Below are positions 2,556 to 16,852 of a stretch of 64,000 nt of DNA, piece after piece. The translations under genes and the position numbers were made by a program. The stretch is from Albibacterium bauzanense (GTDB lineage: Bacteria > Bacteroidota > Bacteroidia > Sphingobacteriales > Sphingobacteriaceae), in the NCBI RefSeq assembly GCF_004339765.1, contig NZ_SMGO01000003.1:124001-188000 (forward strand), written 5' to 3'. Position 1 is the stretch's first letter; the number at the start of each line of letters is the position of its first letter. The notes under the pieces are model-generated. The model was not told the DNA's origin. It searched no databases and was given only the letters and a program-made list of their open reading frames with translations.

Positions 2556-5273
2556 TTATTCAACCTGATAGCGATAAACAGACCTTCCAATGTGGCCATC
2601 TTCATCAATACCTTCAACCACTACACGAAAAGTTCCCTTACCGTCAGAGTTAAAATATTCAAAAGTTAAATCCCCTTTTTCATCTGTTAAAAGGTAAGGA
2701 TTCCAATAAATAGTGGTTCTGTTATCTCTTGATTGCAAAGTAGTTTGAGGACCACTATATTTCGGCACATAAAATTGTCTTTCAGCACTATATCCATTCG
2801 GCATAAAGGTCATTATATTAGTTGGAGGAAAAAGATCAGCTAAATCCTGTGCACTCACCTTCGTCTTCTTAATCTCCTTCATATTTATTACCAATACCCC
2901 ATTTGTCCTATTTCTAGAATTGATCCCACTCACACCATCATTCATAAAAACCTCTATAGATTCAATTCCCTCTACCTGTATACCCATGAGGTAATTAACG
3001 TCTACCTGCAAACCATTCGCATAAATTTCTATTGGAAGTCTATTCCCAGTATTATAAGATCTACTTAAATATAATAATCTATCCACATAGGTGAGTCCCA
3101 TACTTCCCGTCAAACAACCTATTAATTCATTACAACCTTTAAGTTGATCGCCCTTATAAAGATAATCTGCCTGCATACTTAAGCCCGTAAGTGCTCCATA
3201 ATCAGCATGACTCGGTGCTCTTGCAGCTCTTCCTTCAATGGTCACTTCTCTTAACAAAAAGCCTGAACTATTTTGAAGCTTACTATTTTGAAGATAAGTT
3301 TCCAATGCACTGTCAATATTTATAATCTCATCGGGCGCACTTGCACTTATATCTGGTTGAGGAAAAGGTTCTCCATCCGTCATGATCATTAAATTCTCAG
3401 AATTCAAATTATTACGGGCATTAATAACCACTTCAACTGAATCTTGAAAAGCCAGATCCGTAAAACTAAAACGTCCTTTATCATCAGTCTTTCCATCCTT
3501 ATAAAATGATCTTTCAGGAATTTGTAAAAGCAACCTTCCATTCGTTAAGGGCATTCCATCTTTCCTTCTAATCATTCCCGAAACGGCTAAGCTTTTCTCT
3601 GGCAAATATGAAATAGCTGGTGGCTTATTAGTCAATACATCATTGTAAGTATACCTCCGATAACCCTGAGTTAGCATTAATAAATCTAAATCCGATAGCT
3701 TTTTACTATTTACATCATGAAAATAGTAATTAGGCTCTTCAATATAGCCCTCAATATCAGAACTTAAAAGCAAACTACTTAATATGGTTGTTTCCTTATC
3801 TTCATTAACCGGCACTTTGCTTTCATCAATAACTGCTACAGAAAAACTTCCTAAAGAAGGTTCTCCTGCTGAACTTGTATTCAATTTCATTTGAACTTTC
3901 TGCCTTTGAGTATACTTTGGAAGATCCGAAGTCAGATTCATAGTAAGAGAATCGGCCTGCTTAATAAAAGCAATCCGCTCACTAAGAATATTTCCAGAAG
4001 ACGATAAAATGCTTAACTGAGCAATACCCGTTGGAAAGTTTTTCTTTGGAATAGAGCCTGAATATTCTTGGTTTCGCAATACACTCTGCGCTGCATAATA
4101 AACAATGCCTCCATTCCGGCCAATAATATAAAACCCTGAATTATAGTTCTTCTCAAGATAGGAACGATTAGCACGTATAACAAACTTCAAATTCGTTAAA
4201 TCACTATTATCAACCGAAACACTAATGCCCTCTGCTTTCACAGTTGGCAACTTAAAGGTCCCTTTAGTTCCGTCTGCAAATTCAACATTTGCAAAATAAG
4301 TCTTATTGCTCCCAGGGGTAAACAAGAACTTACCCATACCTAAATGCTGAGAAGATATCTCAGCAACCGAGTTTCCTTCTGCATCCACAACCGTACCCTT
4401 CAATTCAACACCCAAACCATCCGAACGTAAAGCTTTAAAAGCCACTTCAGATGGTAAGTCAGCAATCAAATCGCCGCCTTCTGGAAAGAATTGAATATCA
4501 TTCTGTAAAACAGCTGTCTTCAACGGAAAACTAACATTTACAGGTTTCGCTTTCCCTATTTCAACAGTTGCCACAAGCTGCCCGCTTCTCAAATCCACAT
4601 CTTTAGAACTACTAAACTCAATATTCAATAAACCCTTAGCATCCGTATCTCCTCTTCCCCTGCTTATACGTTCATAATCAACAATAACCTCCCAGTTTAC
4701 TCTACGGTTACTTAAAGGCACATTATCTTCGTTTTTAAATAAAACCTGAGCATTCACCTTTACATTCTTATCAGTAGCGGTACTATTAAATGTTATATTT
4801 GTACTTATATCCTTATTAATCGCATTCCCAACAAGCAAATTTTTGGAAAAGAAATAATTCGAATTAAAGTTTAACATCCATCTCGTATAAGCTCTAATGT
4901 GGTAGTTACCTTGTTTAAAAGATGCATCAGAAATCGGAATACTACCTGGTGCAACACCATTCATTACTGGGATCTTAATACTTTCAACGATCGAATCCTT
5001 GCTACTTAATATATCTACGTAAACAATCTTGCTTAATTCTGATGGTATATTTTGAATTGAAGTCAAATATGCCTTAAACCAAATGGTATCACCCACAGCA
5101 TAATAAGGCTTATCAAAATGAAGGTATACTTTCTCTAAAGGGATATCTGTAACCTGCTTATTAACTTTTTCAACAATAGTAGTTACCGGAATACTGTCCT
5201 GCTGTGAAAATGCGGGAAGCCAAAAAACAGTAAGTAAGGATAAAATCGAAAACAGTCTAATATACTTCATCAT
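2556..5273 (-). CDS. Large exported protein with MG2-like and TonB-plug-like domains
   Basis: This 905-residue protein begins with a signal peptide ending near AFSQQ (residue 24). Residues about 40-150 hold LEKVYLHFDKPYYAVGDTIW, the opening strand pattern of MG2 domains in alpha-2-macroglobulin-like proteins. Around residues 560-620 is a carboxypeptidase-regulatory-like beta sandwich (LAVSGMIRRKDGMPLTNG). Around 690-800 is a segment like the TonB receptor plug (IEIYANGLQVDVNYLMGI, then IESIEVFMNDG). The C-terminus, about 840-905, looks like another macroglobulin-type domain. No barrel is present, so it is not a transporter. Bacteroidota carry many such proteins with no settled role, probably at the cell surface. 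It starts 5 bases after the AraC regulator stop, so the two are one operon. Confidence 0.75.
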   Translation of the reverse strand: MMKYIRLFSILSLLTVFWLPAFSQQDSIPVTTIVEKVNKQVTDIPLEKVYLHFDKPYYAVGDTIWFKAYLTSIQNIPSELSKIVYVDILSSKDSIVESIKIPVMNGVAPGSIPISDASFKQGNYHIRAYTRWMLNFNSNYFFSKNLLVGNAINKDISTNITFNSTATDKNVKVNAQVLFKNEDNVPLSNRRVNWEVIVDYERISRGRGDTDAKGLLNIEFSSSKDVDLRSGQLVATVEIGKAKPVNVSFPLKTAVLQNDIQFFPEGGDLIADLPSEVAFKALRSDGLGVELKGTVVDAEGNSVAEISSQHLGMGKFLFTPGSNKTYFANVEFADGTKGTFKLPTVKAEGISVSVDNSDLTNLKFVIRANRSYLEKNYNSGFYIIGRNGGIVYYAAQSVLRNQEYSGSIPKKNFPTGIAQLSILSSSGNILSERIAFIKQADSLTMNLTSDLPKYTQRQKVQMKLNTSSAGEPSLGSFSVAVIDESKVPVNEDKETTILSSLLLSSDIEGYIEEPNYYFHDVNSKKLSDLDLLMLTQGYRRYTYNDVLTNKPPAISYLPEKSLAVSGMIRRKDGMPLTNGRLLLQIPERSFYKDGKTDDKGRFSFTDLAFQDSVEVVINARNNLNSENLMIMTDGEPFPQPDISASAPDEIINIDSALETYLQNSKLQNSSGFLLREVTIEGRAARAPSHADYGALTGLSMQADYLYKGDQLKGCNELIGCLTGSMGLTYVDRLLYLSRSYNTGNRLPIEIYANGLQVDVNYLMGIQVEGIESIEVFMNDGVSGINSRNRTNGVLVINMKEIKKTKVSAQDLADLFPPTNIMTFMPNGYSAERQFYVPKYSGPQTTLQSRDNRTTIYWNPYLLTDEKGDLTFEYFNSDGKGTFRVVVEGIDEDGHIGRSVYRYQVE

Positions 5274-5278
5274 AAATA

Positions 5279-6190
5279 TTAAAAATCACTCTCTCGAAAA
5301 GATTTGGGAGAAAGCCCGGTTTGTCTTTTAAAATATTTCCCGAAAAAAGATTGATCACTAAAATGGAGCCGTTCAGCAATCTGACCAATACTTAATTGAG
5401 ATTTGCTCAATAAAAACTTTGCCTCCAAGATAACAAGATCATTTATAATTTCACTAGCATTTTTTCCAGAATATTCTTTAACCACCTCCGTTAAGTACTT
5501 GGCAGATACATTTAATTGGTCTGCATAGGTCTTAACCGTACGAATTTCTCTAAACTGATGCTGTGCAAGGTTACTGAATTTAATTACCAAACTTTCCTGG
5601 CGAGAGAAGCTTAAACGCGTCATTTGTGTATACTTTTGTGCCAAGGCCCCTATCTCAAAGAGAAAAATATAAAACCCATGGATAAGTATTTCCTTTCCAT
5701 AAGGATGAATTGCATATTTCTTAGTACGTTCAACTAATAGTCTGATCTGTCGCTTAACAAGAGCTGCATCTTCAGGTATCAAGTCCCATACCGGAAAGAA
5801 TTTCGAAGAAAAATAACTAAATACTTCAGAGGTACCTTCAGGCAAGCCAATTTCTGCAATAAAATCGCTTGTAAAACTAAGCCCGGAAATAGATAAGGAT
5901 TGATTCTCAGGTAAAGGCCCTAATAACATATTAGGAGATATATGGATCAAACTGTTCTCTTTGATTGCTATATCTTCCATATTTAAGCTAATTTCTCCCT
6001 GCCCTTCGGTTACCACAAAAATGGACATAAAGTCTGAACGAAAATTCCCTTTTAAATCAGCTCCTCTACAAACATTAAACTCTTCAATAACTGAAAAGCC
6101 ATTCATAACCGTATGTCCAAACTTTACCCTAGTATGGTTCAAGTCCGCCATCTGGTATACTTCGTTCATAATCTTAGTGCTATCATTCAT
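5279..6190 (-). CDS. AraC-family transcriptional regulator
   Basis: This protein is about 303 residues from the ATG at 6190. The last 95 residues form the double helix-turn-helix. The first helix pair is KTYADQLNVSAKYLTEVVKE and the second is SIGQIAERLHFSDQSFFGKY, ending FKRQTGLSPKSFRES. The N-terminal 180 residues look like the cupin-type sensing domain of Bacteroidota AraC proteins. An in-frame TTG at 6217 could extend it by nine residues. The ATG at 6190, preceded by GAGAG, is preferred. It is co-transcribed with the MG2/plug protein downstream and divergent from the efflux operon at 6715. It is therefore the natural candidate to bind the motifs in the shared upstream region. The effector is unknown. 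Confidence 0.88.
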   Translation of the reverse strand: MNDSTKIMNEVYQMADLNHTRVKFGHTVMNGFSVIEEFNVCRGADLKGNFRSDFMSIFVVTEGQGEISLNMEDIAIKENSLIHISPNMLLGPLPENQSLSISGLSFTSDFIAEIGLPEGTSEVFSYFSSKFFPVWDLIPEDAALVKRQIRLLVERTKKYAIHPYGKEILIHGFYIFLFEIGALAQKYTQMTRLSFSRQESLVIKFSNLAQHQFREIRTVKTYADQLNVSAKYLTEVVKEYSGKNASEIINDLVILEAKFLLSKSQLSIGQIAERLHFSDQSFFGKYFKRQTGLSPKSFRESDF

Positions 6191-6447: not shown

Positions 6448-6455
6448 CAAAGATA
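6448..6455 (-). promoter_or_regulatory. Possible -7 box toward the AraC operon
   Basis: The reverse strand reads TATCTTTG, matching the Bacteroidota -7 consensus TAnnTTTG. No clear TTTG lies 19-20 bases upstream. Instead the upstream side runs through the inverted repeat at 6454-6485, with an operator-like motif beyond it. If used, the message would have a leader of about 255 bases. A second reverse-strand TAnnTTTG (TATTTTTG, 6224-6231) also lacks a -33 partner. Confidence 0.35.
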
Positions 6456-6485
6456 TCAACTAACTTTTCCACTAAAAGGTTGATA
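6454..6485. repeat. Bulged inverted repeat upstream of efflux operon
   Basis: TATCAAC-taa-CTTTT at 6454-6468 is complementary to AAAAGGTTGATA at 6474-6485. This makes twelve pairs with a three-base bulge and a five-base loop. It overlaps the reverse-strand TATCTTTG box and has no following T-run. An operator dyad is as likely as an RNA hairpin. Confidence 0.5.
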
Positions 6486-6488
6486 ATT

Positions 6489-6515
6489 CGTATAAGTTGG
6501 TCTATATAACTTATT
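6489..6515 (-). promoter_or_regulatory. Operator-like motif, copy 2 (inverted)
   Basis: Read on the reverse strand from 6515 this gives AATAAGTTATATAGACCAAC. It matches copy 1 at 6568 (AATAAGTCAAATAGACCAAA) at 17 of 20 positions. The two face each other across about 52 bases. This copy is itself partly dyadic (ATAAGTT ... AACTTAT). Such paired sites are typical of AraC regulators, and the neighbouring gene is one, but the link is inference. Confidence 0.5.
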
Positions 6516-6567
6516 TTTTCAATTATAGTCTATTTCTCCTATGTCACCCGAAACTAATTTTAGTTAA

Positions 6568-6600
6568 AATAAGTCAAATAGACCAAAACAACCGACAAGC
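6568..6600 (+). promoter_or_regulatory. Operator-like motif, copy 1
   Basis: The sequence AATAAGTCAAATAGACCAAA is followed by ACAACCGACAA. The same layout recurs at 16091-16122 with about 22 of 30 matching positions. It ends 12 bases before the TAATTTTG box at 6612, occupying the place where a -33 element would be. That is the usual position for an activator that replaces a weak -33 element. Confidence 0.55.
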
Positions 6601-6611
6601 AAGCCTTTTTT

Positions 6612-6619
6612 TAATTTTG
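6612..6619 (+). promoter_or_regulatory. Probable -7 box of the tolC-adaptor-RND operon
   Basis: TAATTTTG fits TAnnTTTG. No TTG lies 17-23 bases upstream, because operator-like copy 1 covers that stretch. This is consistent with an activator-dependent promoter. The leader to the ATG at 6715 would be about 90 bases. Confidence 0.45.
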
Positions 6620-6714
6620 ATTTTTAGCGTTCTTTGCGCTTCATTTTTAGCAAAACAATATAGGAAGGCTAGTAGTTTATAGTCTCATTACATCTAAAGA
6701 AACAAATCATATTA

Positions 6715-8058
6715 ATGAAAAATCGTAAAGAAATCTTCGTATATATAGGACTAATTGCACTTCTATTACCCGGTCTGGCGCAAGCACAAGTCAACAGCCC
6801 AACTCTTCAAAATGCAACGCTACCACAACTTGTAGAATATGCCTTAAAAAACAAACCTGAAATTAAACAAGCTTTAATCGATGAAGAGATTGGAGAACGC
6901 GATATCAATTCAGCTCTTTCGGGTTGGTTACCGCAGATCACGGCAAATGCTGATCTTAATCATACATTAAAGCAACAAGTTAGTCCGCTTACCATTGGTG
7001 GGGAGACCTCCTATATAAGTATGGGTTCTAAAAACTCATCCAATATTACTTTGCAGGCTGATCAAAAAATCTTAGACGCCGGACTAATCCAAGCTTCTAA
7101 ATCGGTTAAATACTACCGTCAGCAGTATGATTTAAATACTGAAAAGCAAGTCATCAATACCATTGTCGGTGTAAGTAAAGCTTATTACGATATTTTAACA
7201 AGCCAGGAACAGCTTAAAATAGTTTCTGAAAATATCAATCGCTTAGAAAAGCAATTCCAAGACGCAAAAGCACAATACGAAGTTGGTTTAGTAGATAAAA
7301 CTGATTTTCAACGTGCTCAAATTAGCTTAAGCAATTCAAAAGCAGATCTAAGAAGAACAGAAGAGCTTTTGAAATATAAATATGCTTACTTAAAAGCACT
7401 TATAGGCTACGATGCAGATAAAGACTTAAGCTTATCGTTCAACGGACAAGAAATGGAACAAAATGTATTGTTAGATACGACCGATATACTGAATTATCAA
7501 AATCGGGTTGAATTCCGCGAGCTTCAAACTCAAAAACAACTTCAACAAATCAATACCAACTATAATAAGTTACAGTTCTTACCAAGCCTATCGGGTTTTG
7601 TTAATTATAGCTGGGCTTTTAATAACAACGATTTTGGAAATCTATATGATCAATCTTATCCAGGATCCATTGTTGGATTAAGGTTGTCTATTCCAATCTT
7701 TCAGGGAACAAAACGAATTCAGGAAATTAAGAAATCACAACTTCTCGAAGAGCGCATCGACTTAGATCTGATCAATACCAAAAATCAAATCAATAGCCAA
7801 TACGAACAAGCCATGGCTTCTTACAAAGCAAACTTAAACGACTGGAGAACAGCAAAAGAAAATGTTGAGATCTCAGAAGAAGTTTACAACACCATTAAAT
7901 TACAATATGATGAAGGTATAAAAGCATATTTAGATCTAATGACCTCTGAAACCGATCTTAGAACGGCTCAGCTAAATTATCTAAATACATTATACAGCTT
8001 ACTTTCAGCAAAACTAGACGTACAACAAGCATTAGGCACCATTTCATTAAATCAATAA
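6715..8058 (+). CDS. TolC-family outer-membrane efflux protein
   Basis: This 447-residue protein has a signal peptide ending at AQAQ (residue 25). Two similar halves follow, rich in long amphipathic helices (LPQLVEYALKNKPEIKQALI near residue 38, AQLNYLNTLYSLLSAKLDVQ near the end). This is the trimeric outer-membrane channel of an RND tripartite pump, joining the periplasm to the outside. It has no lipobox cysteine, unlike the OMF of the second pump at 34772. It is the first gene of a three-gene operon, followed by the adaptor after 9 bases. The upstream region contains operator-like motifs shared with the AraC gene. Confidence 0.9.
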   Translation: MKNRKEIFVYIGLIALLLPGLAQAQVNSPTLQNATLPQLVEYALKNKPEIKQALIDEEIGERDINSALSGWLPQITANADLNHTLKQQVSPLTIGGETSYISMGSKNSSNITLQADQKILDAGLIQASKSVKYYRQQYDLNTEKQVINTIVGVSKAYYDILTSQEQLKIVSENINRLEKQFQDAKAQYEVGLVDKTDFQRAQISLSNSKADLRRTEELLKYKYAYLKALIGYDADKDLSLSFNGQEMEQNVLLDTTDILNYQNRVEFRELQTQKQLQQINTNYNKLQFLPSLSGFVNYSWAFNNNDFGNLYDQSYPGSIVGLRLSIPIFQGTKRIQEIKKSQLLEERIDLDLINTKNQINSQYEQAMASYKANLNDWRTAKENVEISEEVYNTIKLQYDEGIKAYLDLMTSETDLRTAQLNYLNTLYSLLSAKLDVQQALGTISLNQ

Positions 8059-8067
8059 CATATAGCA

Positions 8068-9204
8068 ATGAATCTCAACTCAATAAAATCAGGTTTTACA
8101 ATATTAACAGGTTCTATACTTCTTGCAGCTTGCGGAGGTTCAGAACAACAGGCTCAACAAACTGCTCCTCCTCCAACAGCTGTTTCTACTTACACCGTTG
8201 AAAAGGAAAATGTAACAACAACCGATGAATATCCCGGAGTTGTAGTTGCTTTAAATGAAGTTGAGCTTCGTGCAGAAGTTGGTGGTTACATTACAGCTAT
8301 CTATGTTAAAGATGGTCAAAAAGTAACAAAAGGGCAACGTCTATATGAGATTGATCGCACCAATTATCAGGCGGCTTACAACTCTGCTAAAGCAAATTTA
8401 GAAGTTGCACTAGCTAATAAAGCCAAAGCAGAAAAAGATGCTCAACGCTATACAGCTTTGGCAGAAAAAGAAGCGATTGCTAAACAACGTGTCGACTATG
8501 CTTTAACAGACCTAGCAAATGCATCTTCACAAGTAGCAGCCGCTCAAGCTAGCCTTGCAACAGCACAAGCTAATTTAAATCGTTCGATAATCACATCTCC
8601 TTTAACAGGAACGATCGGGATTTCGCAGGTAAAATTAGGTGCTCTTGTTAGTCCGGGAACAACATTATTAAATACTGTATCAACAGATAATCCAATGGCA
8701 GTTGATATATCCGTTAATCAGAAAGATATACAACGATTCTTAGAGTTGCAGAAAAACCCGGCTCAAAGCATCAGCGATTCTATCTTTAGCATCGAGCAAA
8801 ATGGCATTTCGTATTCACTAAATGGCAGCATTGTTGCTATCGACAGAGCTGTTGATCCAGGTACAGGAACTATTAAAGTAAGGATCAGCTATCCAAATCC
8901 TTCCGGCATTTTAGTCTCAGGAATGACTTGCAATGTGAAGGTTTTAAACAAATCAAGCGTTCCTCAAATAGTTATACCGCATAAAGCAGTAACCGAACAA
9001 CTCGGCAAATACTCTGTATTTGTGGTGGGCGACAGCAGTAAAGTGGAGCAGCGGATTATACAAACGGGAAGTACAGTTCAAGACCAAATTGTAGTTACAG
9101 AAGGTTTAAATGAAGGGGAAGTAATTGTTTCTGAAGGAACCATGAAACTCCGTCCGGGTGCAACCATTCAAGTTACACCAGATACTGCAGCTGCAACAAA
9201 CTAG
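8068..9204 (+). CDS. RND efflux periplasmic adaptor (membrane fusion lipoprotein)
   Basis: This 378-residue protein has a lipoprotein signal sequence with lipobox LAAC (Cys22), so it is probably lipid-anchored facing the periplasm. A barrel-sandwich half (VELRAEVGGYITAIYVKDGQ) is followed by an alanine-rich coiled-coil hairpin around residues 95-165. The second sandwich half is LNRSIITSPLTGTIG, and the beta-barrel and membrane-proximal domains follow. It links the inner-membrane pump at 9227 to the TolC channel at 6715. Gene order channel-adaptor-pump with short gaps (9 and 22 bases) marks one transcription unit. Substrate cannot be deduced. Confidence 0.92.
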   Translation: MNLNSIKSGFTILTGSILLAACGGSEQQAQQTAPPPTAVSTYTVEKENVTTTDEYPGVVVALNEVELRAEVGGYITAIYVKDGQKVTKGQRLYEIDRTNYQAAYNSAKANLEVALANKAKAEKDAQRYTALAEKEAIAKQRVDYALTDLANASSQVAAAQASLATAQANLNRSIITSPLTGTIGISQVKLGALVSPGTTLLNTVSTDNPMAVDISVNQKDIQRFLELQKNPAQSISDSIFSIEQNGISYSLNGSIVAIDRAVDPGTGTIKVRISYPNPSGILVSGMTCNVKVLNKSSVPQIVIPHKAVTEQLGKYSVFVVGDSSKVEQRIIQTGSTVQDQIVVTEGLNEGEVIVSEGTMKLRPGATIQVTPDTAAATN

Positions 9205-9226
9205 TCTTATTTAATTCACAAAGAAT

Positions 9227-12200
9227 ATGATATCAGAAATTTTTATCAGACGACCGGCCATGGCCATCGTTATCTCTATACTAATTGTCTTGGTTGGTAC
9301 CATCGTTTTAACAGGTCTGCCAATCAGTCAATACCCAACTATTGCTCCTCCTACTGTTACAGTATCAGCGACCTATACAGGTGCCGATGCTCAAACCGTA
9401 GAACAAACAGTTACCACACCTATTGAAAGTCAGATCAACGGTACGCCGGGAATGAAATACATAAGTTCCTCAAGTACTGCCGATGGCCGTTCAACCATTA
9501 CAGTAACTTTTGAAGTAGGAACCGACATTGATATTGCAGCACTGGATGTTCAGAATAGAGTAGGAATTGCAGAACCTTCCTTGCCAGAACCTGTAAGGCG
9601 TCTGGGTGTTACAACCAAAAAGGCCAATACAGATATGCTAATGGTACTGGGTCTGGTTTCTCCAAATGGAACTTACGACGAACAGTTTCTTGCAAATTAT
9701 GTAAACATCTATGTAAAAGATGCGATGCTGCGTGTTCCCGGAGTTGGGGATGTAATGGCATTCGGACAGCCTTTTAGTATGCGTATTTGGATGGATGCAA
9801 CCAAAATGGCAAGTCTTGGAATTACGCCGGCACAGGTAACAGCAGCCGTTCAAGAGCAAAATACACGTATTCCAGGAGGTAGCGTAGGTGGCGCCCCACA
9901 ACAGAGCAACCAAACCTTCGAATATTCTGTAATCTTAGATGGTGCTCTTAGTACCGAAGAAGAGTTCAGAGAAATTATCGTAAAAACTAATCCAGACGGA
10001 TCAGCAGTTTATTTAAAAGACATTGCTCGTGTAGAATTAGGTCAATTTGCCTATAACATTGCTGCTAAAGTAAACGGAAAAACATCTGCCATGATGGGTA
10101 TCTATCAAACCCCGGGAGGTAATGCTGTTGAAACTGCCGATGGTATCTACAAAGCACTTGACGAATTAAAAGCTTCATTTCCAAATGATATAGATTATGT
10201 AATTGGTTACGAAACCGTATCGGTAGTAAACGCCTCCATCAATTCGGTTGTTAAAACTCTTATTGAAGCCATACTTTTGGTTACTCTGGTAGTATTTATC
10301 TTCCTTCAAAGCTGGAGAGCAACTTTAATTCCGGTTTTAGCTATTCCGGTATCTATTATTGGTACGTTTATCTTCTTTACTCTACTGGGCTTCTCAATTA
10401 ACGTTCTAACCATGTTTGGTTTCGTACTGGCAATTGGTATCGTGGTAGATGATGCCATCGTCGTCGTAGAGGCCGTCCAGCATTACATTGATCAGGGTTT
10501 CTCACCTAAAAAGGCAACGAAAAAGGCCATGAAGGATATCTCTGCTCCGGTAATAGCAATTGCTTTAATACTAGCAGCCGTATTTATACCAGTGGGCTTT
10601 ATCCCCGGAATGGTAGGTCAATTATACCAACAGTTTGCAATTACAATCGCAATCTCAGTATTGATCTCTGCATTCGTGGCTCTTTCTTTAACACCTGCTC
10701 TTTGTGCACTTTTACTAAGACCAACTACCTTAAATAAAGAATCGAAGGGATTAAGCGGAATGTTCTATAAGTTTAACACCTGGTTTGCCAGAGTTACTTC
10801 TAAATATTCAGAGAATGTTAGGTGGTGTTTAAAAAGATCGCCATTGGTAATTGTATTCCTAATCTGTATCTATGTAGGCACACTCGCTTTATTTGCAGCA
10901 AAACCTTCTGGATTTATTCCTTCTGAAGATGCAGGTATATTTATTATTGGTGCTTCACTTCCCGAAAACTCGTCGACCGTTCGTACGCAAGCTTTCGTTG
11001 ATCGTGTATCCGAAACTATTCGTGAAAAGAACCCTGAAATAGAAAACGTAACTTCCATCACAGGTATCAACCTGTTAAGTGGTGCATTTGTATCAAATGC
11101 AGCAACATTCTTTGTTCAGTTAAAACCATGGGAACAAAGAGAAAGAGGAGTCGTTGATATAATAACCAACGTCTCTCAAGAGTTCGCAAACGACAAAGAC
11201 GGAAGCGTTCAAGCTGTACAACCCCCTCCTATTCCCGGATTAGGTATAAGTGGTGGTTTTACCTTAGAAATTCAAGAACACCAGGCTGGCGATATCAATA
11301 ACTTTGCAGGTGTTATAGGTCAATTCCTGGGTGCTGCTAATCAAAGACCTGAAATTGGCATGGCTTATACACTTTTCAATCCAAGAACACCTAGTTACCG
11401 GGTAAGCGTAAACCGCGATCAGGTTAAGAAAATGGGTGTATCGATTGGTAGCGTATATAGCACCATCGCCTCTAATTTCGGTAGTAGCTATATCAATGAC
11501 TTTACCCGGTACGGACGTAACTTCAGAGTGGTAGCACAAGCCGATACGAATTATAGAAGTTCTATTGAAAGCTTAAACAACCTGTATGTTCCAAATATAT
11601 CAGGTACAGAAGTGCCTTTGAATACCATGGTTTCTTATAAAAAAGAAGAAAATCCGGCTATTATAAATCACTTCAACCTATTTAGGTCCATACAAGTAGG
11701 TGGAGCAGCAATGCCTGGCTATAGTAGTGGCGACGCTTTAACTGCTTTAGAAGAAACAGCCGCTCAGGTATTGCCTGATGGTTATAGCTATACTTTCTCA
11801 GGTCTGAGTAATCAGGAGAAAGAATCAGGAGATGCAACAGCTAGTATTTTCACATTGATCATCGTGGTAGTATTTCTATTATTGGTTGCTCTTTATGAAA
11901 GCTGGTCAGTACCTTTCTCAATCTTACTAAGTGTTCCATTAGGTTTATTCGGAGCTATATTGGCACTCACGTTCTTGCCATATCTGGATAATAACATCTA
12001 TGCACAAGTCGGGTTAATTACGCTGATCGGACTATCTGCAAAAAATGCAATCCTGATCGTTGAGTTTGCAAAAGAACGTGTTGATATGGGAATGGAAATA
12101 ATTGCAGCAACAATCGAAGCAGTAAAACTTAGGTTAAGACCGATCGTGATGACATCTCTTGCATTCATCTTAGGTGTTATTCCTTTAATTTTCTCTTCAG

Positions 12201-12391
12201 GAGCCAGTGCAATTTCACGTCAAACCATCGGTTGGACAGTAGCATCAGGTATGACTGTAGCCACCATATTAGCAATATTTGTAGTACCGGTTCTGTTTGT
12301 AGTAATAACAAGAATAGCTTATGGCAAGAAGAAACTTGCTGAACTTCAGGCAAACTACAATCCGGAAGACCACAAAGACATGCTGCATTAA
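9227..12391 (+). CDS. RND efflux transporter, HAE1 type (AcrB-like)
   Basis: This 1054-residue inner-membrane proton/drug antiporter has full family length. A first transmembrane helix (residues about 10-30) is followed by a large periplasmic loop and a helix bundle. The proton-relay acidic pair is visible as Asp408-Asp409 in IVVDDAIVVVEAV. The partner lysine is Lys939 in LSAKNAILIVEFA. A second periplasmic loop and helix bundle follow. The start MISEIFIRRPAMAIVISILI is typical of HAE1 pumps. It forms a tripartite pump with the two preceding genes. A stem of 16 pairs follows at 12401-12465. Hydrophobic compounds or drugs are likely substrates, by family. Confidence 0.95.
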   Translation: MISEIFIRRPAMAIVISILIVLVGTIVLTGLPISQYPTIAPPTVTVSATYTGADAQTVEQTVTTPIESQINGTPGMKYISSSSTADGRSTITVTFEVGTDIDIAALDVQNRVGIAEPSLPEPVRRLGVTTKKANTDMLMVLGLVSPNGTYDEQFLANYVNIYVKDAMLRVPGVGDVMAFGQPFSMRIWMDATKMASLGITPAQVTAAVQEQNTRIPGGSVGGAPQQSNQTFEYSVILDGALSTEEEFREIIVKTNPDGSAVYLKDIARVELGQFAYNIAAKVNGKTSAMMGIYQTPGGNAVETADGIYKALDELKASFPNDIDYVIGYETVSVVNASINSVVKTLIEAILLVTLVVFIFLQSWRATLIPVLAIPVSIIGTFIFFTLLGFSINVLTMFGFVLAIGIVVDDAIVVVEAVQHYIDQGFSPKKATKKAMKDISAPVIAIALILAAVFIPVGFIPGMVGQLYQQFAITIAISVLISAFVALSLTPALCALLLRPTTLNKESKGLSGMFYKFNTWFARVTSKYSENVRWCLKRSPLVIVFLICIYVGTLALFAAKPSGFIPSEDAGIFIIGASLPENSSTVRTQAFVDRVSETIREKNPEIENVTSITGINLLSGAFVSNAATFFVQLKPWEQRERGVVDIITNVSQEFANDKDGSVQAVQPPPIPGLGISGGFTLEIQEHQAGDINNFAGVIGQFLGAANQRPEIGMAYTLFNPRTPSYRVSVNRDQVKKMGVSIGSVYSTIASNFGSSYINDFTRYGRNFRVVAQADTNYRSSIESLNNLYVPNISGTEVPLNTMVSYKKEENPAIINHFNLFRSIQVGGAAMPGYSSGDALTALEETAAQVLPDGYSYTFSGLSNQEKESGDATASIFTLIIVVVFLLLVALYESWSVPFSILLSVPLGLFGAILALTFLPYLDNNIYAQVGLITLIGLSAKNAILIVEFAKERVDMGMEIIAATIEAVKLRLRPIVMTSLAFILGVIPLIFSSGASAISRQTIGWTVASGMTVATILAIFVVPVLFVVITRIAYGKKKLAELQANYNPEDHKDMLH

Positions 12392-12400
12392 TTTATATCC

Positions 12401-12465
12401 ATGAAAACTATCATGAGTTTACATAATTCACAAAAAAGAAAAATAAACGCTCATGATAGTTTCAT
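12401..12465. repeat. Inverted repeat after the first RND operon
   Basis: ATGAAAACTATCATGAG (12401-12417) pairs with CTCATGATAGTTTCAT (12450-12465), with one extra A in the left arm and a 32-base AT-rich loop. There is no T-run after the right arm, so it is not a classical intrinsic terminator. The stem could end the efflux message or protect its 3' end. Confidence 0.55.
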
Positions 12466-12537
12466 CACCTTTAAAAACAACTGCGTAGCACTCATTAATT
12501 CAATTAAAAGTGAATAGCGCATTAATAATTTATTCTG

Positions 12538-13359
12538 ATGAAAACTTTAATTGTTGCGACAGACTTTTCGAAAGAGGCTGAAAATGCTGTGGAATTTGCT
12601 GGAGCAGCTGCACAATATACGCAGACCAAGGTTGTTTTGTTTAATTCATTTAACATTCCCTTGCATGCGTCCAACGCTCGCTTACCGGCAACGGTATTCA
12701 AAGAACTTCTTGACAATAATAGTTTGATGTTAAAGAAGAGAGCCTTAGAACTTTCTGAAAAATACTCAATAGAAGTTGAATATGATTCAAGCTTTTTAGA
12801 GCTAAATGATGAATTGGAAAATCTGTTTTTAAAGTTCGATGCTGAAATGGTTATTATGGGTACTGCTGCTTATTCATTAGAGCAGGAACTTTTTGGTAAC
12901 TCTACAACGTCTGCAATCATGAAACAAAAGTTTCCGGTACTTGCCGTGCCAATGGGAGTTAAATTTAAAGCCATTAAGAAAATACTATATGCCTGCGATG
13001 TATTGAGAGGAATCAATGTCCGGATTTTAAATACGATTAAAGAGTATGCCAAATTAACGGATGCTGAAGTCGAAATATTTCACGTTCAGAATAATTTAAG
13101 AAAACTTGAAAATAATGTAACAGAATCCGAAAATTCTTCTCAAATAAGCGAAGGTTTAGAAGGTATTTCACACTCTTATAAGAACATACAATCAGAAATG
13201 ATAATTGAAGAGATAAAGAAGGAAGTAAAACGTACTCAGGCAGATTTACTTATTATGGTTCCACAACGATATGGCTTTTGGCAATCGCTTGTTCATAAAA
13301 GTAAAACCCGGGTAATGGCATCTCAAAGCGAGATCCCCCTTCTCTCAATTCCTATATGA
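12538..13359 (+). CDS. Universal stress protein, tandem Usp domains
   Basis: This 273-residue cytoplasmic protein has two Usp folds. Domain 1 begins MKTLIVATDFSKEAENAVEF and has a nucleotide-loop-like end, MGTAAYSLEQELFGNSTTSA. Domain 2 starts near residue 144 (IKKILYACDVL) and ends LLIMVPQRYGFWQSLVHKS. There the glycine-rich ATP-binding pattern is not evident, so domain 2 is probably a non-binding partner. Single-gene unit with no Shine-Dalgarno sequence. Proteins of this type are induced in stress or stationary phase, and the exact role is unknown. Confidence 0.88.
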   Translation: MKTLIVATDFSKEAENAVEFAGAAAQYTQTKVVLFNSFNIPLHASNARLPATVFKELLDNNSLMLKKRALELSEKYSIEVEYDSSFLELNDELENLFLKFDAEMVIMGTAAYSLEQELFGNSTTSAIMKQKFPVLAVPMGVKFKAIKKILYACDVLRGINVRILNTIKEYAKLTDAEVEIFHVQNNLRKLENNVTESENSSQISEGLEGISHSYKNIQSEMIIEEIKKEVKRTQADLLIMVPQRYGFWQSLVHKSKTRVMASQSEIPLLSIPI

Positions 13360-13415
13360 TATAATAAATCAATATACTTGCAGAATTTTTAAGCAAGGTT
13401 AAGCATAAATATGCA

Positions 13416-15983
13416 ATGACAAAGTCAATAATATTCAAATCCATTACTTTCATCTGTTTCGTTCTTCTACAAACTGGTTTTGTTTTTGGACAGACCACCA
13501 GTGTACGAGGAATAATTACAGACCTCGTAACAGGTGAAACACTTCCCTATGTTACTGTAACAGTGCCTGGTACAACCATCGGCACTTCTGCAGATGATGA
13601 TGGTCGCTATACAATTAAACTATCAGGAAGCCAAACTAAGCTAAAATTCAATTTTATCGGCTATCTTCCGGTCGAAGTAGACGTTAAACCAGGCATAGAT
13701 CAGGTTATTAACATCGAAATGGATGTTAATGAAGATATGCTGGATGCTGTAGTAATTACAGGAAAAAGAGGAAGATATAGAAACCGCGATAATCCGGCTG
13801 TTGAATTGATCAAAAAGGTAATTGAGCATAAAGCCGAGAACCAAATGGGCGCTCATGAATACGTTCAATACGAACAATATGAAAAGATCACCTTTGCTCT
13901 AAGCAATCTAAGCGAAAAATTTAAGAACAAAAAGATCTTTCAAAACTATCAATTCCTCTTCAACGAACAGGATTCAACCGACATGGGAGGAAGAATTACA
14001 CTTCCGGCCTATATGGAAGAGAAACTATCAAACGTATATTATAGAGGAGACCCGGAAAAGAAGAAACAATATGTACTAGCGAATAAAAAGGCTGAGTTTG
14101 ATCCAAGATTTATTGATAACGACGGACTATCTGCTTATTTTAACCGTCTGTATGAAGATATCAATATCTACGACAACAATATTTCTATTGCAACCAACCT
14201 ATTATTGAGTCCAATAGCAAATAATTCGCCTACTTTCTATAAGTTCTTTATTACCGATACCATCAAAACCAATGATCCATGGCTGGTGGAACTAAGCTTT
14301 ATTCCACGTAATAAAGCAGATCTGTTATTTGAAGGAAAATTATACATCACTTTAGAAGGCAATTATGCAGTAGAAGGTGCTTACTTAACTGTTAATAACG
14401 ATATCAACCTTAATTTTATGCGCGGCTTAGAGGCCGATCTTGAATTCGACAAGAATGATGATGGTCGCTACTCTTTAAGCAAAAGTACACTCGCAATGGA
14501 ATTCGCCATTACAGAAAAAGGTGGAGGAATGTACGGCGAGCGTACTGTCGACTATCAAAACTATGTTTTCGGCAAGCCGCAGCCCGACAGTATTTATTCA
14601 GGCCCGGCAGAAGTAATCGCTTATAATGTAGAAGAAAAGAAAGATGAAAATTACTGGAATGACATCCGCCCTCTCCCATTAAGTGCTGACGAAGTTTCCA
14701 TCTATAGAAATGTCGATACGCTTCAAACCATCAAATCTTTCAGGCGGTTTATGGATATCAGCACCCTGGTTTTAGCGGGCTATAAGAGTTTCGGCAAGTT
14801 TGAAATGGGACCAGCTAACACTTTTTATAGCTTTAACCCGGTAGAAGGTTTCAGATTACGCATAGGAGGAAGAACAACTCCTGAGTTTAATAAACGTTTC
14901 TATGCAGAAACCTATGCGGCTTATGGCTTCAGAGATGAAAAATGGAAATACTTTTTAAGCGGTACTTACTCATTCAATAAGAGATCTATCTACAAGTTTC
15001 CAGGCAATTACCTGCGAGCAAGTTTCCAGCGTGATACAAAAATACCCGGACAAGAATTACGCTTTGTTCAGGAAGATAACTTCCTGTTATCCTTTAAACG
15101 TGGTGATAACCAGCGTTGGCTTTATAACGATATCTATCGTTTAGAATACGTTCGCGAGTTTGAAAACCATTTATCATTTAATGCCGGATTTACCAAATGG
15201 AAACAAACCCCGGCTGGGATCTTAACGTACCAACGGTTAAATACTGCAGGCAACAGCGTTAATGTAGAATCACTAAATACCAGCGAGTTAAACTTCCAGA
15301 TACGTTATGCACCAAATGAGCAGTACTATCAAGGAAAACTGTACCGCACACCTATCTTTAATAAATACCCCATCTTTACATTAAATTATGATATGGGTAT
15401 GAAGGGATTCTTGGACGGTGAATATAACTATCACAAATTAAGTGGAAGCATTTTCAAACGTATATACTTATCGCAATTGGGTTATGCAGATGTAACTGCT
15501 GAAGGAGGCTATATCTTTGGAAAGAATATTCCTTTCCCTTTATTAACCATACACCGTGCAAACCAAACTTATGCATATCAGCTCAACTCTTATAACCTGA
15601 TGAACTTCATGGAATTTATGAGTGATAAATATGCTGCCATCGATGTTCAGTATTATATGAATGGCTTTTTATTCAACAAGATACCTTTGATCAAAAAACT
15701 AAAACTCAGAGAGGTTTTCAGCTTTAAATCACTGTGGGGTAGCTTAAGAAATGAGAACAACCCAACATACAATACAAACAATAATTTATTCTTGTTTCCA
15801 TTAGATGAGAACGGCATGCCAATCTCTTATACACTTAACAAAGAGCCTTATATTGAAGGTAGTGTAGGGATCGCCAACATCTTCAAACTCTTCCGGGTAG
15901 ATCTGGTAAAAAGATTCTCTTACCTGGATAATCCGGGCGTTTCTGAGTGGGGAGTAAGAGCTCGTTTCAAATTAGACTTTTAA
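13416..15983 (+). CDS. DUF5686 family outer-membrane protein with carboxypeptidase-like N-terminal domain
   Basis: This 855-residue exported protein has a signal peptide ending near VFGQ (residue 26). Residues about 28-110 form the CarboxypepD_reg-like sandwich (SVRGIITDLVTGETLPYVTV ... DAVVITGKR) typical of Bacteroidota surface proteins. The remaining roughly 740 residues match the DUF5686 layout: NPAVELIKKVIEHKAENQMG near residue 125, then a long series of beta strands rich in aromatic and charged residues. The C-terminus WGVRARFKLDF ends in phenylalanine, as in outer-membrane barrels. Role unknown; it is not a TonB receptor because no plug is seen. A strong hairpin terminator follows at 16001. 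Confidence 0.82.
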   Translation: MTKSIIFKSITFICFVLLQTGFVFGQTTSVRGIITDLVTGETLPYVTVTVPGTTIGTSADDDGRYTIKLSGSQTKLKFNFIGYLPVEVDVKPGIDQVINIEMDVNEDMLDAVVITGKRGRYRNRDNPAVELIKKVIEHKAENQMGAHEYVQYEQYEKITFALSNLSEKFKNKKIFQNYQFLFNEQDSTDMGGRITLPAYMEEKLSNVYYRGDPEKKKQYVLANKKAEFDPRFIDNDGLSAYFNRLYEDINIYDNNISIATNLLLSPIANNSPTFYKFFITDTIKTNDPWLVELSFIPRNKADLLFEGKLYITLEGNYAVEGAYLTVNNDINLNFMRGLEADLEFDKNDDGRYSLSKSTLAMEFAITEKGGGMYGERTVDYQNYVFGKPQPDSIYSGPAEVIAYNVEEKKDENYWNDIRPLPLSADEVSIYRNVDTLQTIKSFRRFMDISTLVLAGYKSFGKFEMGPANTFYSFNPVEGFRLRIGGRTTPEFNKRFYAETYAAYGFRDEKWKYFLSGTYSFNKRSIYKFPGNYLRASFQRDTKIPGQELRFVQEDNFLLSFKRGDNQRWLYNDIYRLEYVREFENHLSFNAGFTKWKQTPAGILTYQRLNTAGNSVNVESLNTSELNFQIRYAPNEQYYQGKLYRTPIFNKYPIFTLNYDMGMKGFLDGEYNYHKLSGSIFKRIYLSQLGYADVTAEGGYIFGKNIPFPLLTIHRANQTYAYQLNSYNLMNFMEFMSDKYAAIDVQYYMNGFLFNKIPLIKKLKLREVFSFKSLWGSLRNENNPTYNTNNNLFLFPLDENGMPISYTLNKEPYIEGSVGIANIFKLFRVDLVKRFSYLDNPGVSEWGVRARFKLDF

Positions 15984-16000
15984 GACAAAACAGACTTGAA

Positions 16001-16055
16001 TAATAACAATAGGCCTAACACTCTTTTAATAAGAATGTTAGGCCTATTGTTATTA
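16001..16055. terminator. Long perfect hairpin terminator after DUF5686 gene
   Basis: TAATAACAATAGGCCTAACA at 16001-16020 pairs perfectly over 20 bases with 16036-16055, leaving a 15-base loop. The stem end is AT-rich on both sides, so it could stop transcription from either direction. Here only the forward gene needs it. Confidence 0.8.
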
Positions 16056-16090
16056 TAACGCGAATTGTCATTGAATTCTCAACTTATCAA

Positions 16091-16122
16091 GATAAGTCAT
16101 ATTGACCAATCTAACCGATAAT
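16091..16122 (+). promoter_or_regulatory. Operator-like motif, copy 3, upstream of outer-membrane protein gene
   Basis: GATAAGTCATATTGACCAAT is followed by CTAACCGATAA. It shares ATAAGTCA, GACCAA and AACCGA, in the same spacing, with copy 1 at 6568. Immediately before it the bases form a dyad, ACTTATC-AA-GATAAGT (16082-16097). A weak GATATTTG at 16152-16159 is the nearest -7-like sequence. This suggests that the gene at 16235 shares a regulator with the efflux operon at 6715. Confidence 0.5.
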
Positions 16123-16234
16123 CCACCCTTGTATACCCTCCCATTTAGCAGGATATTTGTTCTAATCAAAAGGCAAAAAATGTATTGCCGATGAGATAAT
16201 TTCAATTATTTAAAAACACATAACAACAAAAAAA

Positions 16235-16852
16235 ATGAAAAAGATTTTCTTATCAATTGCACTATTAGGAGGTATCGTTTTAACATCTCAAGCACAAACA
16301 GACAAAGGTCAATTTATCGTAGGTGGTAATGTACAATATAGCACTTCCAAATCAGATGCAGATAATGCAAAAGCATCACACAGTTTTTCAATCGTTCCAA
16401 ATGTTGGTTATTTCGTAGATAATAACATAGCAGTCGGTACTGGCATAGGATACCAATCAGCAAAATCTGCTAACCCTGGTAATTATGGCAAAAGAGAAGC
16501 TTTTGTAATCTCTCCTTTCGGTCGTTACTATGTTCCTGTTGCTGAAAAATTCAAATTCTTCGGACAACTTTCTGTACCAATGGCATTTGGAACTACAAAA
16601 GCAACGGATGCTGACTTAGAAGTTGGTGATAAAACAGGATCATCTACTTCCATCGGAGTAGCTTTATCTCCTGGTTTTGCTTACTATCCAAGCAAGAAAA
16701 TTGGAATTGAGTTTGCATTAAACGGTGCATCTTATAACCACTACACATTGGAAGATGCTGATGGAAATGAAATCAAAGGACAAGGTTCAGAAGATTTCTC
16801 TATCGGAACTGACTTCTTCTCTCCTAGCATCGGAATCCAATTCCATTTCTAA
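16235..16852 (+). CDS. Outer-membrane beta-barrel protein
   Basis: This 205-residue protein has a clear signal peptide (MKKIFLSIALLGGIVLTSQA, cleavage near residue 20). Alternating strands typical of an eight-strand or similar small barrel follow (FIVGGNVQYSTSKSD, FSIVPNVGYFVDNNIAVGTG, RREAF-like turns). It ends in the aromatic signature SIGIQFHF for barrel assembly. The fold resembles the porin-like outer-membrane beta-barrel family of Bacteroidota. Function is not known. The upstream region carries copy 3 of the operator-like motif, and an intrinsic terminator follows at 16877. Confidence 0.8.
   Translation: MKKIFLSIALLGGIVLTSQAQTDKGQFIVGGNVQYSTSKSDADNAKASHSFSIVPNVGYFVDNNIAVGTGIGYQSAKSANPGNYGKREAFVISPFGRYYVPVAEKFKFFGQLSVPMAFGTTKATDADLEVGDKTGSSTSIGVALSPGFAYYPSKKIGIEFALNGASYNHYTLEDADGNEIKGQGSEDFSIGTDFFSPSIGIQFHF

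Follow-up and report, generated by a model that had tools for sequence, protein, structure and literature searches.

Gene neighbourhood of the regulator

The window, that is, the whole stretch of 64,000 nucleotides of Albibacterium bauzanense DNA analysed here, carries on its reverse strand a gene for a regulator of the AraC/XylS family of 303 amino acids, referred to below as araC (5279..6190; PF12833, E 1.8e-19, and PF00165). Six bp 3' of araC, and probably in the same operon, lies a reverse-strand gene for a large secreted protein of the Big_1/MG2/CarboxypepD_reg-like kind (2556..5273), whose domain matches are weak and below cut-off and which has 61% identity in the congener. The forward strand on the other side of araC encodes a TolC-type outer-membrane efflux protein (6715..8058; PF02321, 172.8 against a cut-off of 22), an RND periplasmic adaptor (8068..9204; TIGR01730, 275.9 against 94.9) and an HAE1 RND permease of the multidrug type (9227..12391; PF00873, and NF000282 with 1284.8 against 1250). 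The ACR_tran permease, the adaptor and the TolC partner stand in one operon and place the pump, by curated models, in the HAE1 RND group, with a predicted multidrug role.

The first gene past the pump, here and in the congener, encodes a universal stress protein (12538..13359, forward strand), and is followed on the same strand by a DUF5686/CarbopepD_reg_2 outer-membrane protein (13416..15983) that the congener does not have at the corresponding place. Between this gene and the next promoter lies an unstranded 26-bp inverted repeat (96%; 16000..16056), likely a terminator; a comparable hairpin occupies the corresponding place in the congener. The last gene considered, on the forward strand, encodes an outer-membrane beta-barrel protein (OMP_b-brl, 205 aa; 16235..16852) that is 70% identical to its counterpart in the congener and is called OMP below.

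Operators and promoter spacing

The motif AATAAGTyAwATAGACCAA occurs three times in the window, at 6497-6515 (reverse strand), 6568-6586 (forward) and 16091-16109 (forward), as an earlier note on this DNA had claimed; the three matches at up to three mismatches compare with 0.30 expected by chance, and 0 of 100 shuffles reached three. The repeat, described there as about 30 bases long, is real, and its true extent is larger: the copies are the cores of 38-bp operators, and the distance that separates each operator from a -7 element of the Bacteroidota type is fixed. Scores for these operators were obtained with a profile of 68 positions (R2), trained on seven sites from the genus and from Chitinophaga varians, the three window sites being in the training set.

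The araC-directed operator 1 (6475..6512, reverse strand; AAGTTATATAGACCAACTTATACGAATTATCAACCTTT; 37.2 bits, E 7e-9) is followed on the same strand by a -7 element at 6448..6455 (TATCTTTG) which matches TAnnTTTG perfectly and lies one base nearer to the operator than the other two. The pump-directed operator 2 (6571..6608, forward; AAGTCAAATAGACCAAAACAACCGACAAGCAAGCCTTT; 44.8 bits) has its -7 element at 6629..6636 (forward; GTTCTTTG), with equal spacing in the congener; of TAnnTTTG, this window element matches the TTTG half only. The OMP-directed operator 3 (16094..16131, forward; AAGTCATATTGACCAATCTAACCGATAATCCACCCTTG; 45.6 bits) has a -7 element at 16152..16159 (forward; GATATTTG; GACTTTTG in the congener), with the same spacing as at the pump promoter. 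Counted downstream from the first letter of TWGACCAA, TTTG lies at offset 54 in the promoters of pump and OMP and at 53 in that of araC. The four genus promoters before pump and OMP genes all keep the layout TWGACCAA-N13-9mer-N20-nnnnTTTG to the base.

Upstream alignment with the congener showed conservation of AAGTCA/AAGACA, TWGACCAA, NCNAACCG, a CCTTK box and the -7 TTTG, a set wider than the letters given in the earlier note. Within the operator, the boxes GTCA/GACA, TWGACCAA, (C)CG and nnCCTTK follow one another at steps of roughly one helix turn. Bacteroidota sigma-A promoters have their -7 element, TAnnTTTG, at -12 to -5 (PMC9723704), and the operator therefore covers about -70 to -33. 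The promoters found here resemble that type in the TTTG half, which is at a fixed place in all of them, and differ from it in that the last box of the operator occupies the expected -33 position. A scan for sigma-70 promoters gave fewer promoter-like matches than in shuffles and is uninformative here.

Two details of the araC-pump gap had been read differently before. The two copies in it had been described as facing each other; those at 6497 and 6568 in fact point apart, each toward its own promoter, because the reverse copy makes up an entire operator that has a separate -7 element toward araC and is, judged from its bases, a complete divergent promoter for this gene. The pump -7 element had been placed at 6612-6619 (TAATTTTG), a candidate that is missing in the congener and whose spacing differs from that of the OMP promoter. 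We moved the assignment to GTTCTTTG at 6629-6636 because the spacing is base-exact in the four genus promoters, and the position at 6612 is probably wrong.

A TGTCA box is also common to all four pump and OMP sites of the genus, 28-29 bp 5' of the operators (in the window at 6542..6546, 29 bp from operator 2, and at 16066..16070, 28 bp from operator 3, both forward), and is possibly an additional contact.

Sites in the whole genome

The exact 18-mer was found in the whole genome (3,081,443 bp) at the three window sites only. At up to three mismatches it had 34 matches in total, against 66 for a reversed-pattern control, and the remaining loose matches are therefore at chance level. The AACCGA element that had been pointed out downstream of the copies does belong to the site: GWCAWWTWGACCAANNNAACCG occurs at 0-1 mismatches only 5' of the pump and OMP genes, in this genome and in the congener, and its remaining matches all have three mismatches and are at control level.

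A genome scan of the kind proposed earlier, made with profile R2, gave four high-scoring sites and then a sharp drop to 15.5 bits. The new site, which was outside the R2 training set, scores 33.1 bits (home-made profile E-values are rough) and lies on the reverse strand at G000 C2:599519-599583 (also L267 5520). It is a composite operator-promoter immediately in front of a start codon; the gene in question, almost leaderless, encodes a calcineurin-like phosphoesterase lipoprotein, which this site, from its sequence, probably adds to the regulon. Apart from it, further 18-mers and 58-mers with few mismatches were at chance level across the genome. The congener has no full-length orthologue of the phosphoesterase, and its sites are those of pump and OMP only. 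A 34%-identical homologue from a distant family (G458) has a site 61 bp upstream.

Conservation in the genus and across Bacteroidia

In the one congener genome sampled (G001), the gene order araC, pump, universal stress protein, OMP is kept, AraC is 60-61% identical, and the operators at pump and OMP are present with identical TTTG spacing, which was the conservation in relatives that the earlier note had suggested looking for. The araC-directed site was looked for in this genome and not found, and autoregulation is therefore not a conserved trait of the genus. A pair equivalent to that of the window, with one site before araC and the other before the pump, occurs in Chitinophaga varians. The motif is absent upstream of OMP orthologues in other genera. 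At loci from a number of further genera in the family (L039-L048), the orthologue lacks this operator; a GACTA/TAGTC palindrome lies there across a TAATTTTG -7 element, with an apparent TetR-type gene near it in one case (L047); the OMP gene is apparently under a different regulator in these genera.

We then considered 80 loci retrieved around AraC homologues, using a 38-bp genus matrix built from five own-genus sites, with the -7 element left out. Its best in-locus position was beside araC in 16 of the 80 homologous loci, against 3.7 expected. At the araC-pump loci among the 80, a site was found in the gap facing the pump in 17 of 17 (shuffle p 0.001-0.013), each time with TTTG at offset 54. 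These loci span Flavobacteriia, Cytophagia (Dyadobacter), Chitinophagia (Chitinophaga) and Bacteroidales (Bacteroides, Parabacteroides, Rikenella and Prevotellaceae); some are close relatives, so that they are not 17 independent events. The pump loci L205, L258, L262 and L269 are not independent tests either, because motif searches found them, and at one of these, L262, the genus matrix did not place the site. When R2 was run over 79 loci that had contributed nothing to its training, it gave 12 matches at E<=1, and 11 of these adjoined araC. Many homologous araC loci of Bacteroides and Alistipes among the 80 have no nearby site. Across 395 genomes from the class, the fixed-letter exact pattern did not rise above its control, and a profile is therefore needed.

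The small regulon proposed earlier (the operon of the regulator itself, the RND pump, the beta-barrel protein) is supported by the uniqueness of the sites, by the congener and by the class-wide recurrence of the operator at homologous araC-pump loci and beside related AraC genes; the proposal had missed the fourth site.

In Prevotella-type loci (L142 9756-9823 and L099 2709-2776), this layout is directed at a beta-barrel gene that diverges from araC, with no pump. A MarR gene present in Olivibacter sp. (L091) turns up again next to sites in members of its family.

The regulator and its proposed mode of action

The C-terminal part of the window AraC, about 100 aa, has the double HTH of the AraC/XylS family (PF12833, 70.2 bits; PF00165, 30.9 bits; both above cut-offs). 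An AlphaFold model of the protein (pLDDT 78) gave Foldseek matches to ToxT, Rns and RhaR, and the strands predicted at positions 32-106, in its N-terminal domain, match the sensor domains of RhaR, BgaR and AraC (TM by target 0.6-0.7); the sensor domain is thus predicted to be cupin-like. Compared over its full length, the predicted structure comes closest in fold to ToxT and Rns, which are full-length AraC regulators with fatty-acid pockets, at 14-17% identity and a full-length TM of about 0.4 on a moderate model, which carries little ligand information. To our knowledge few full-length AraC structures exist, and for this reason the match is a mere ligand hint.

The motif very probably serves as control site for a regulator of the AraC type, and we are confident, short of certainty, that it is the binding site of the AraC encoded at 5279-6190 and that the three copies form a compact regulon. 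The geometry of the sites fits the extended asymmetric sites of AraC/XylS proteins by the promoter, with binding predicted from sequence, and the operator lies over the -35/-33 region at a fixed core-promoter spacing, as in class II activation. That this AraC binds there, activates and responds to a ligand is our inference. Two double-HTH AraC monomers would sit side by side on one face of the DNA, each reading two boxes, and the bound protein would most likely recruit sigma-A RNA polymerase from the -33 position (class II activation). It would thereby switch on araC together with the gene for the large secreted protein (its own operon), the pump operon with its TolC, adaptor and RND genes, and the barrel gene that stands apart, and the cupin domain may sense a hydrophobic ligand that is exported or handled by the products of the target genes.

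The overlap of the last operator box with the expected -33 position would also suit a repressor, released by its ligand, that does not activate at all. We regard this as unlikely, since the direct-repeat-like layout, the base-exact -7 spacing in many genomes and the weak resemblance of the pump promoter to the -33/-7 elements all fit an activator-dependent promoter, and AraC/XylS proteins are mostly activators. Slightly less probable again is that the sites are bound by a second AraC of the same genome, or by both proteins, the adjacent AraC being one input only. This paralogue (G000 C2:1123591-1124490; L037 4583-5554) is 53-54% identical to the window AraC, is its sister in a quick tree, has a near-identical HTH2 with almost identical recognition helices, and adjoins a reductase gene and no pump; on the point of a site of its own, no composite site was found at its locus. 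Against its role, operator and neighbouring araC stay paired in distant genomes, and the congener has no second counterpart at the threshold used, though the sites are conserved there. Cross-talk between the two proteins is possible. The idea that the repeats represent a widespread promoter sequence, or a chance likeness, unconnected with AraC would agree with the control-level count of the simple exact pattern in the class, but is highly improbable given that 3.08 Mb contain no more than three exact copies, their retention at corresponding genes in the congener and out-of-sample matches that adjoin araC homologues.

Relation to known pump activators

Both the AraC/XylS regulator and the HAE1 RND pump of the window are parts of known kinds. 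In Proteobacteria, AraC/XylS-family activators of RND pumps include MarA, SoxS and Rob, which act on acrAB-tolC, and MtrA, which acts on mtrCDE. If the assignment of adjacent AraC to the operators is right, the window system would by analogy work like such a class II pump activator: it shares with these systems an AraC-type double HTH, an RND pump and an operator near -35/-33. It differs from them in phylum, in the -33/-7 promoter type, in operator sequence and in target set, and also in that its AraC is full-length, with a sensor domain of its own, and is encoded beside the pump. None of the NCBIfam models for MarA, SoxS and Rob was among the matches of the window AraC at E 0.001, which, by the models tested, leaves it outside that group. 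A search of open-access papers, which is weak evidence of absence, gave nothing relevant on AraC/RND operators in Bacteroidota, and no description of the operator, of its base-exact tie to the -7 element or of a target set of pump and lipid genes was found in that literature.

Sites before lipid genes

A second profile (R1), with 23 training sites of which none came from lipid clusters, was run over 151 genomes of the family and gave 23 matches outside the genus at E<=0.001, 22 of them outside coding sequence and 17 with an AraC homologue within 1.5 kb. Downstream genes encode FadL, a GDSL lipase, acyl-CoA dehydrogenase, ETF and serine palmitoyltransferase (an equivalog match, 740 bits against 640), or DUF2147 followed by 3-hydroxyacyl-CoA dehydrogenase. 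Clusters bearing serine palmitoyltransferase also contain myo-inositol-phosphate synthase, and another homologue of the phosphoesterase lies in a lipid cluster (G255) that bears a site as well. In a class-wide scan the top-scoring matches were pump or lipid loci; weaker ones were mostly within genes and are therefore put down to chance. Some lipid-type sites have TTTA in place of TTTG, or neither.

The target genes are the reason to suppose that these regulators sense amphipathic lipids. More tentatively, and with rather less than even confidence, we propose that a Bacteroidia-wide AraC subfamily may use one operator-promoter grammar to couple RND efflux, barrel proteins, fatty-acid uptake and beta-oxidation, and sphingolipid and inositol-lipid synthesis, its members sensing fatty-acid-like or other amphipathic molecules, which would make it a general system of the phylum for the control of envelope lipids. 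A base-exact code linking AraC to the Bacteroidota promoter would make pump and lipid regulons predictable in many genomes, and with an operator common to pump, FadL/beta-oxidation and serine palmitoyltransferase genes the question of the regulator's ligand becomes directly testable. The AraC locus of L256 and L257 has three operators, for FadL and lipase, for acyl-CoA dehydrogenase or ETF, and for the DUF2147-beta-oxidation genes.
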